From: a virus
Reading direction: 5' to 3' (one strand)
IMG/VR virus record: IMGVR_UViG_3300042691_011083
Coordinates: 1 to 30,067 of that record
Length of the DNA stretch: 30,067 nucleotides
Below, piece after piece: positions 1 through 23,112 of the stretch; positions within the stretch are counted from its first letter, which is position 1; every line of letters starts with the position of its first letter. The notes under the pieces are model-generated. The model did not search any database and was not told where the DNA came from. It worked only from the letters and a program-made list of their open reading frames with translations. Both the position numbers and the translations under genes were made by a program.

Positions 1-286
1 AGTACTCACGTTTAATCCAGCATGGCATGATACTTAACTTAGGTAACATTACTTTCAACACTTCATCGTGGTTGTACGTAATTCGTTGATTTTTGTTATT
101 AACGAAAGTTATGATTTGATTACGACCTAGCCAAGATTTTCGTACTACAAAGTTAGCACGTTCGATCGGTGGATAGATAGCAGCTAATTCTTCAGGACTT
201 AGCTTAGCTATTGCTTGAGCGATTAATTCTTTACTTGACAATGTAGTTTCTACAACTTCAACTTGAGTTTCTTTAACTTTTTTCAT
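1..286 (-). CDS. Hypothetical protein, C-terminus cut by window edge
   Basis: An open minus-strand frame starts at ATG 286-284 and runs off the left edge, giving about 95 residues without a stop. The protein begins MKKVKETQVEVVETT, has a helical stretch with LSPEELAAIYPP, then a part rich in aromatic and basic residues (VVRKSWLGRNQIITFV) and ends in the window near MPCWIKREY. I do not recognise a family. The start is supported by a 40-nt A/T-rich leader separating it from a conserved promoter-like element at 327-358, the same arrangement as for the next minus-strand gene. Its opposite orientation to the structural genes suggests an early or middle gene of the replication side of the genome; that is inference. 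Confidence 0.6.
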   Translation of the reverse strand, partial: MKKVKETQVEVVETTLSSKELIAQAIAKLSPEELAAIYPPIERANFVVRKSWLGRNQIITFVNNKNQRITYNHDEVLKVMLPKLSIMPCWIKREY

Positions 287-326
287 AATTATTATATTTA
301 TATTGTTATTATTTATTTACATTATT

Positions 327-358
327 ATTATCAATTTAACTTCGTATTTGTTTTGTAA
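327..358 (-). promoter_or_regulatory. 32-bp promoter-like element, copy 1
   Basis: Read on the minus strand this is TTACA, a variable stretch, then ACGAAGTTAAATTGATAAT. Copies 1 and 2 match at 26 or more of 32 positions, and copy 3 has the same length. It ends 40 nt before the start codon of the minus-strand gene at 286. It does not match the Bacteroidota TAnnTTTG promoter, so a phage-specific promoter or regulator site is inferred. Confidence 0.5.
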
Positions 359-413
359 GTTATTTTATTTTTATTTATTTATTTTATTATTTATTTATTT
401 TACTTACATTTAT

Positions 414-445
414 ATTATCAATTTAACTTCGTATCCAGACTGTAA
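414..445 (-). promoter_or_regulatory. 32-bp promoter-like element, copy 2
   Basis: This is the second copy of the TTACA-N-ACGAAGTTAAATTGATAAT element on the minus strand. The 22 bp at its GATAAT side (414-435) are identical to copy 1. No gene lies between copies 1 and 2, only about 55 nt of A/T-rich DNA, so the two look like tandem promoters of the same gene or a local duplication. Confidence 0.5.
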
Positions 446-446
446 A

Positions 447-485
447 TGCTATACGCTTCGCTCCGCTCGCTAGCTCGCACAGCTC
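447..485. repeat. GC-rich repeat block next to promoter element 2
   Basis: The sequence TGCTATACGCTTCGC (447-461) is followed by short CGCTC/GCTCGC units. The same 15-mer occurs exactly at 804-818, again just beyond a promoter-like element. Its GC content stands out sharply from the flanking AT-rich DNA. Its function is unknown; it could be a protein-binding site or an RNA hairpin. Confidence 0.5.
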
Positions 486-552
486 CGCCTGTCAATTCCC
501 CCTAGAGAGAGTATTAGAGCCTACTACTAGACCCTAGGTTTGTTGAGTTGGA

Positions 553-723
553 TTATATTAACCCAGACTCAAATTCTATGTAGTCAATCACTTGATCTTC
601 ATCATAATCATCATACGTGCCTTCAACTACTATTTCATAATTTGTGTTACGTTCGTAACCGCGATTAATTAACTCTATATATCCATATCCATAGTCGCAA
701 TCAAAGTTTTGTTTAGTTATCAT
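553..723 (-). CDS. Small acidic hypothetical protein (56 aa)
   Basis: The frame could start at 768, but that would place the conserved promoter-like element (755-786) across the start codon. The ATG at 723-721 gives a 31-nt A/T-rich leader after the element, matching the first minus-strand gene, so I choose it. The product begins MITKQNFDCDYGYGYIE and is acidic, with a Tyr/Asp/Glu-rich second half (VEGTYDDYDEDQVIDYIEF). It has no membrane segment or motif I recognise. Small acidic early phage proteins sometimes act as inhibitors or DNA mimics, but nothing here proves that. Confidence 0.5.
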   Translation of the reverse strand: MITKQNFDCDYGYGYIELINRGYERNTNYEIVVEGTYDDYDEDQVIDYIEFESGLI

Positions 724-754
724 AATATTTATATTTAATTTGTTATTCATATAT

Positions 755-786
755 ATTATCATTTTCACTTCGTGTTCGTCTTGTAA
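755..786 (-). promoter_or_regulatory. 32-bp promoter-like element, copy 3
   Basis: This is the third copy, on the minus strand: TTACAAGACGAACACGAAGT followed by GAAAATGATAAT. It has the same 32-nt length as the other two, with changes mostly in the middle spacer. It lies directly upstream of the small acidic gene ending at 553. Confidence 0.5.
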
Positions 787-834: not shown

Positions 835-1172
835 GTATCATATACATATCATCACAATCACACAGGCCGGCTATATCGCAACGAATTCACACCAGCTAAA
901 CAAACGCATACCGGAATAACTAGATCGTTTAAATAGCTAGTAATTGTGCACACGTACGCATCAAACCGAAAAGGTAAATCCTTTTTTCACAATCCAAAAT
1001 CGAGTCGGGGGCTGGGCTTTTTCAAAGTCATTTCCGTTGGGCTATGACGGTTTCAGAATGTGTATATAACCCTTTACCTATATATTTGCAATAAAAAATA
1101 TCCTAAAATGCGACATTAGGTACTTAAATATAAAAATAGTAGGCTAACGTCACACTGTAAAAATGGTATACT
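835..1172. other. Gene-free divergent intergenic region
   Basis: No convincing gene was seen on either strand. The stretch separates minus-strand genes from the plus-strand late genes, so both leftward and rightward promoters are expected near it. It contains a small hairpin AAAAGG-TAAAT-CCTTTT followed by TT (969-987) that could act as a weak terminator in either direction. It also holds an inverted repeat AGTCAT/ATGAC around 1026-1048 and a Bacteroidota-like -7 hexamer context at 1081. An origin or operator here is possible but unproven. Confidence 0.4.
1056..1088 (+). promoter_or_regulatory. Possible Bacteroidota-type promoter for the late genes
   Basis: TATATTTG at 1081-1088 matches the flavobacterial -7 consensus TAnnTTTG. 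The expected -33 TTTG is only partly matched (TGTG near 1059-1062). It is the best candidate upstream of the long plus-strand run, but chance matches are common in AT-rich DNA. Confidence 0.25.
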
Positions 1173-1487
1173 ATGCGTAATAGTATAAACTATAACTTAA
1201 AATGCTTTATTATGAGAATGTCTGGAACAAAACCGATTAAAAATACAATGAGAAAACAATCGCCTGTTAAGATGGTGAATGCGGCTGGCGCTGCAATGGG
1301 GGCTGCTAAAAAAGGATTAGAGAAAGCTACAGAAGCAGCTACTAAAAAAGTTGCTAAAAAAGAAGCTACAACAACTAAATCTACACCTACTACAAAATCT
1401 AGTAGACCTACTGTTAAAGGTAAAGCTACTATGGAAAAAACCCCGGCAATGCAACTGAAGAAAGCTGGTAAGTCTAGTTGTAAATAA
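1173..1487 (+). CDS. Ala/Lys-rich histone H1-like basic protein with SPVK motif
   Basis: First gene of the plus-strand run. The central and C-terminal parts are almost entirely Ala, Lys, Thr and Ser (GLEKATEAATKKVAKK, then repeated TTKS and PT units), like the disordered tail of eukaryotic H1 and bacterial Hc1-type proteins. A short motif RKQSPVKM lies near residue 28 and resembles SPLK motifs in other small proteins here. The longest frame is listed; in-frame ATGs at 1212 and 1218 give an N-terminus (MSGTKPIKN) more like its neighbours, so the true start may be there. A DNA-binding or internal virion role is inferred from composition only. Confidence 0.6.
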   Translation: MRNSINYNLKCFIMRMSGTKPIKNTMRKQSPVKMVNAAGAAMGAAKKGLEKATEAATKKVAKKEATTTKSTPTTKSSRPTVKGKATMEKTPAMQLKKAGKSSCK

Positions 1488-12128: not shown

Positions 12129-12171
12129 ATACGCGTAATAATAATAATATATAACTTTAATTTAATATATT

Positions 12172-23108: not shown

Positions 23109-23112
23109 TACG

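Follow-up and report, generated by a model that had tools for sequence, protein, structure and literature searches.

Phage-encoded sigma factors with promoters of their own are well known, an example being gp28 of SPO1 and the middle promoters of that phage. The middle promoters of T4 carry a MotA box at -30 together with a -10 box and are used with the host sigma70, and its late promoters, which depend on gp55, carry a -10 element only. Promoters of the Bacteroidota consist of a TAnnTTTG motif at -7 and a TTTG motif at -33, and in these bacteria the promoters of most other Gram-negative species work poorly (PMC2483708). Some Cellulophaga phages have been placed in the Pachyviridae, in a paper on flavophage families that makes no mention of sigma factors, promoters or RNA polymerase (PMC8776804). 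A literature search of partial coverage found no report of a phage sigma factor or of a promoter switch in Bacteroidota phages.

The window analysed here, a virus fragment of 30 kb taken as a whole, carries the genes for GroEL, the large terminase (TerL) and the portal along with the structural genes on its plus strand. Among annotated phages it is closest to Manatee Spring podovirus MW202828, Maribacter phage Panino, Flavobacterium phages elemo and Cellulophaga phages, and its TerL is 80-82% identical to those of two relatives designated G001 and G010. The non-structural arm runs in the opposite direction; it begins with the minus-strand genes at the left edge and is cut off by the end of the contig. 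A sequence-only reading of this DNA had pointed to three copies of a promoter-like element on the minus strand only, and these are indeed present as the 32-mers TTACAAAACAAATACGAAGTTAAATTGATAAT (358-327, copy 1), TTACAGTCTGGATACGAAGTTAAATTGATAAT (445-414, copy 2) and TTACAAGACGAACACGAAGTGAAAATGATAAT (786-755, copy 3). A 21-base IUPAC core with up to three mismatches matches just these three places across the window, and the opposite strand and the reversed control give no match; a 25-base pattern, which caught two of the three copies, is expected to match 0.00 times at three mismatches (100 shuffles). Two copies were said to precede start codons by 31-40 nt and do so, position 327 lying 40 nt from the ATG at 286 and position 755 lying 31 nt from the ATG at 723. 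No gene belongs to copy 2 itself; it forms a tandem with copy 1, 87 bp away, and relatives keep this arrangement at 86 bp (L004, L005) and 79 bp (G001).

The length of 32 bp first given for the unit has to be revised to about 43 bp, because ATATAAnTGTAAC adjoins the 32-mer on its downstream side. In full length, element 1 is TTACAAAACAAATACGAAGTTAAATTGATAATAATAATGTAAA (316..358, minus strand; score 47.8 against a 43-column profile), the predicted proximal promoter of the gene that starts at 286; element 2 is TTACAGTCTGGATACGAAGTTAAATTGATAATATAAATGTAAG (403..445, minus strand; score 49.1), the predicted distal promoter in tandem with it; and element 3 is TTACAAGACGAACACGAAGTGAAAATGATAATATATATGAATA (744..786, minus strand; score 46.2), the predicted promoter of a small gene that starts at 723. 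Transcription would start near 319-320, 406-407 and 747-748, respectively. The gene behind elements 1 and 2 (2..286, minus strand) is seen in translation for 95 aa before it runs off the contig, and its homologue in G001 (55904-56314) is likewise preceded by the element. The gene behind element 3 (553..723, minus strand), as judged from the sequence, the ORF list and the translation, encodes a small acidic protein of 56 aa from the ATG at 723; a longer ORF call, to 768, would place the start within element 3. Elements 2 and 3 are each bordered upstream by GC-rich GCTATACGC/GCGTATAGC repeats (window 446-475 and 789-830), in relatives as well.

Exact copies of the core were found in eight other viral contigs, where some lie by chance inside unrelated genes and the rest extend the unit to 43 bp, and a looser family pattern occurs in at least 120 IMG/VR stretches, a single phage carrying as many as 16 copies. 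A profile built from 512 sites stands 38 bits above an AT-rich background and yields the consensus YTTACAR-N4-AAYACGA-N5-AATTGATAATATAA-N-TGTAAC, in which the four blocks TTACAR (1-6), AAYACGA (11-17), AATTGATAATATAA (23-36) and TGTAAC (38-43) keep a fixed register. In the layout TTACA-N-ACGAAGT-K-AAA-W-TGATAAT proposed earlier, the AGTKAAA part does not hold as a feature of the family, in which positions 18-22 are nearly free and 23-26 partly conserved. Blocks 1 and 2 are separated by a gap of 6 in 327 cases, against 4-6 cases at gaps of 5 or 7, block 2 and GATAAT by a gap of 9 in 414 cases (1-2 at 8 or 10), blocks 1 and 3 by a gap of 21 in 291 cases (0-3 at other gaps) and GATAATA and TGTAA by a gap of 4 in 230 cases (9 at a gap of 5), in material that was partly recovered through the motif and that includes 80 loci chosen without it by a sigma protein described below. 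GATAAT follows in register after 235 of 243 TTACAN6AYACGA strings. TTACAR and AYACGA both fit WYACRR and form a direct repeat 11 bp apart, both members being present in 392 of the 512 sites, and TGTAA at the far end mirrors TTACA. In 257 Gb of bacterial genomes the element turned up in only six stretches, of which five are on metagenome contigs from Bacteroidota, and this near-absence indicates that it is no host promoter class. A blastn search with the element consensus against isolate phages returned matches at chance level and nothing more.

A scan of whole phage genomes, which the sequence-only reading had proposed, strongly upheld the placement of the sites near gene starts and on one strand. 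In 12 near-complete phages, 145 of the 146 sites lie on the strand that does not encode the structural genes; 120 of the 146 are intergenic, with intergenic DNA making up 5.6%, and nine lie deep in an ORF. Each of the 38 phage contigs searched has 1-16 copies, nearly all on one strand, and the reversed control gave none; since these contigs were recovered through the motif, the weight rests on copy number, strand and control. This single-strand placement in relatives bears out the earlier proposal that the minus-strand, non-structural genes alone are served.

A sigma-70 factor was found by scanning the proteins of G001, one near-complete relative, and is present in 32 of the 45 records holding the earlier loci, most of the misses being short fragments or chance matches. 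Nearly all near-complete carriers of the element encode this divergent sigma70-family factor beside a helix-turn-helix (HTH) protein. The sigma protein, of about 254 aa, has sigma regions 2 and 4; sigma-70 models match it in all 26 members, and PDB sigma factors match it by sequence and by fold. Its structure model is of moderate confidence (pLDDT 75, pTM 0.53) and supports the domain folds alone, the TM value of about 0.3 arising because the domains are not placed relative to one another. The phage sigma was matched by 443 IMG/VR stretches. None of the isolate phages in the collection carries it, S-CBS1 at 33% being the sole match. The HTH protein is about 206 aa long, has its helix-turn-helix at the C terminus and matches HTH_11 weakly; it lies just upstream of sigma in 71 of 72 loci (for example G001 1358-1978, L173). 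One contig of 129.5 kb (G035, L193-L199) holds two sigma genes and two separate element clusters and is either chimeric or a doubled genome.

Loci picked by the sigma protein alone gave 393 same-strand sites, with none on the opposite strand and none for the reversed control, and 71 of the 80 loci contained sites. An independent repeat with 50 further sigma loci gave 215 same-strand and 5 opposite sites and none for the control, sites being present in 34 of the 38 loci with at least 4 kb upstream of sigma. The next open-frame ATG follows the 43-mer at a median of 15 nt and falls within 40 nt for 333 of the 393 sites, compared with 136 random points. Measured from the sigma gene, most sites are 0.5-10 kb further upstream, before a block of small unknown early-type genes, and the pattern is one element per gene or operon, in a single orientation and at a fixed short distance from the start codon. 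The rigid block spacing, the near-absence from bacterial genomes and this placement together point to a promoter class and not to chance, and the element is almost certainly a promoter.

Twelve genomes with both the sigma gene and the element were compared with eight sister genomes with neither; 12 sister contigs of 36-65 kb also carry neither sigma nor motif. The HTH protein is present in 12 of the 12 sigma-bearing genomes and in none of the eight sisters, and the family of the window gene 2..286 in 11 of the 12 and again in none of the eight. At 3-60 nt before genes, each of the eight sisters has 5-14 copies of TAnnTTTG, in both arms, and each of the twelve sigma-bearing genomes has 0-2, about as few as for the reversed control; the counts do not overlap (U=0, p=1.5e-4), with the clade members not being independent, and the association of sigma and element may therefore represent one evolutionary event. 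The element itself contains no TAnnTTTG, as had been noted from the window, and no recognised host-type promoter was seen for the genes behind it. The full TTG-N17-21-TAnnTTTG arrangement was found before genes in none of 10 genomes or fragments. The element was also considered as a Bacteroidota host promoter (-7 TAnnTTTG, -33 TTTG) and rejected, such motifs being absent from it and such pairs not being intergenic before genes. Host-type promoters thus appear to have been replaced by a private promoter across the clade.

The sigma region is missing from the window contig. The kinship of its TerL to G001 and G010 and the clade-confined family of gene 2..286 suggest that the window phage carries the sigma/HTH cassette. 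Some contigs of 50-57 kb (G019, G023, G031), which may be incomplete, have the element while no sigma was found in them, in a search without positive control; this counts against sigma as the reader of the element.

The late strand of the sigma-bearing phages has a short element of another kind. The class SGTAATANTA precedes late genes in 19 intergenic copies in the 12 sigma-bearing genomes and in none in the eight sisters, and is a candidate late promoter; the window example is CGTAATAGTA (1176..1185, plus strand), 26 nt before the ATG at 1212. This motif or a close variant is seen in the window at 1176-1185, at about 8337, at 12134 and at 23111, 25-65 nt before late-strand genes. Outside the element family, comparison with G001, G002 and G003 revealed a dyad, GCGACATTAG...CTAACGTCAC (1110..1153, plus strand), before the structural operon. 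Its consensus, GTGACRTTAG...CTAAYGTCAC (the GTGACATTAG dyad), recurs in G001 (54778-54820), again before the structural operon, and in G010 (30579-30623), within the non-structural block, and it is likely the operator of a phage regulator. A long conserved intergenic stretch at about 956-1046 of the window, CCGAAAAGGTAAATCCTTTTTTCAC...CCGGGGGCTGGG...TTTCCGTTG, is common to G002 and G003; an Rfam search with it gave no family and only a weak sub-threshold match. The structural arm ends with giant proteins of roughly 3,000 aa (G010 48380-57190, G021 21116-30145), which show a weak polynucleotide-kinase-like domain (phrog_415).

The preferred reading, to which we assign a probability of about 0.6, is that the host core RNA polymerase equipped with the phage sigma factor reads the element. 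GATAAT (positions 27-32) would be the -10 box, sigma region 2 would read the GATAATAT box, and recognition of the upstream WYACRR repeat (1-6 and 12-17, one helical turn apart) would fall to sigma region 4, to the HTH protein or to both. Transcription starting near position 39-40 would leave short leaders before the ATG. The element class would then represent the private promoters of the non-structural arm in an uncultured clade of Bacteroidota podoviruses, with early or middle timing, the clade having a sigma and HTH pair that its sisters lack and having lost nearly all host-type promoters. Promoter-like placement, a rigid register, conservation across the family, co-occurrence with the sigma/HTH cassette, the scarcity of host-type promoters and the retention of GATAATAT in lineages with altered upstream blocks all favour sigma as the reader. 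Against it, spacing without any tolerance and a conserved block lying between -35 and -10 are atypical of sigma70-type promoters. Promoters of that family typically, though not by strict definition, pair -35 with -10 at about 17 bp and tolerate some variation; the element has a gap of 20-21 bp from TTACAR/TTACA to GATAAT, with no deviation tolerated. Motif variation also tracks sigma distance (rank r 0.35) no better than that of the linked primase (0.48), and co-variation with sigma, HTH, Erf, exonuclease and primase does not discriminate among these proteins. Three sigma-bearing lineages (L530, L541, L567) keep GATAATAT with altered upstream blocks (TCACC/AAATAAT, CCCCY/ATTACWA, WCACGGACTTAT), and in these neither sigma region 4 nor the HTH recognition helix changes consistently; the lineages are natural variants for tracing the reader of the upstream blocks. 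Since the sigma gene comes after most of the sites, the first sigma must have another source; in some genomes (G021, L541) the element also precedes the sigma gene itself, which suggests feedback. A bolder form of the sigma reading, which we regard as doubtful, would have the clade wholly free of host promoter specificity from time zero, its first genes also lacking host-type promoters, through a two-protein sigma and HTH system, virion-delivered or self-bootstrapping, that reads a rigid four-block promoter, the HTH partner sitting on the tandem WYACRR repeat beside the GATAATAT -10 box.

The lone sigma factor could instead serve the late-strand class, a point against its reading the element. 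The element would then be an immediate-early promoter used by host RNA polymerase with a primary or alternative host sigma, and the phage sigma and HTH protein would act later on SGTAATANTA. The location of the sites before early-type genes and mostly ahead of sigma, the need of the sigma gene for prior transcription and the restriction of the short late element to sigma-bearing phages agree with such a scheme, which nevertheless seems unlikely given an element that lacks TAnnTTTG and is almost absent from bacterial genomes, and given that the sisters, whose hosts are of the same kind, use TAnnTTTG on both arms. The element could also be one contiguous site read by a phage RNA polymerase that has escaped recognition, either carried in the virion or made of a single subunit. 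Spacing that is absolute across all 43 bp, base conservation around the presumed start, an AATACGA core resembling the T7 promoter TAATACGACTC and giant virion proteins of 2.6-3.9 kaa with largely unknown function are compatible with this; however, no RNA polymerase family was recognised among the G001 proteins or the giant proteins and no cellular-type DxDGD motif in a convincing context, and the sister phages too have giant proteins yet use host-type promoters, making it quite improbable. A genome search with PF00940 (T7-type polymerase) left its controls also without a match. The suggestion of a phage-encoded or phage-modified RNA polymerase thus fares better in its second half, because no phage RNA polymerase was found among the proteins searched and the sigma factor with its adjoining HTH protein is the candidate reader.

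It is more improbable still that the element is no promoter at all and serves as a regulator's operator, a replication site or a loxP-like recombination site. The direct repeat, the mirrored TGTAA and TTACA ends and a partial resemblance of the window copies to half a loxP arm could be read in that sense, but a single orientation and strand, one copy per gene or operon, the fixed short distance to start codons and genes otherwise devoid of a recognised host-type promoter speak against it. The loxP-like arm was dismissed as a coincidence, its letters falling mostly on the non-conserved positions 18-22. For the element as a whole, the early-gene operator that was also suggested from the window is unnecessary; an activator could nevertheless bind the TTACAR/AYACGA direct repeat.

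With the sigma reading preferred, a large uncultured group of phages appears to have exchanged Bacteroidota-type promoters for its own, which the sister phages did not do, and the two groups offer a natural before-and-after pair for the evolution of viral RNA polymerase takeover. The 38-bit motif marks the clade and its non-structural genes in metagenomes, and the sigma factor and element are a candidate orthogonal sigma/promoter pair for Bacteroidota.

Among known systems, the clade shares with SPO1 gp28 a phage sigma70-family protein and phage-only promoters repeated before many genes, presumably used with the host core polymerase. It differs in the four blocks held rigid over 43 bp, in a sigma unrelated at the level of named families, in the near-disappearance of host-type promoters genome-wide and in belonging to Bacteroidota phages. 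The upstream blocks would centre near -30, as in T4 middle promoters, if GATAAT corresponds to -12 to -7; the T4 class, however, uses the host sigma70. The late element is short and -10-like, as in T4 late promoters, and, as in T4, a DNA-binding protein, here the HTH protein, accompanies sigma. The Flavobacterium-type TTTG (-33)/TAnnTTTG (-7) promoters are used by the sisters elemo, Panino and MW202828 at the same start distance, whereas TAnnTTTG is missing from the element and very scarce in the sigma-bearing genomes. T7-type promoters share the AATACGA core, the contiguous rigid recognition and the conserved bases around the start; in contrast, the element has 43 bp in separated blocks, and no T7-type polymerase gene was found among the G001 proteins. 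The terminase, portal and structural genes resemble those of Pachyviridae-type flavophages (elemo, Cellulophaga and Maribacter phages), whereas the sigma factor, the HTH protein and the element are absent from the isolates checked. What is new here is the apparent clade-wide replacement of host-type promoters together with the rigid four-block layout.
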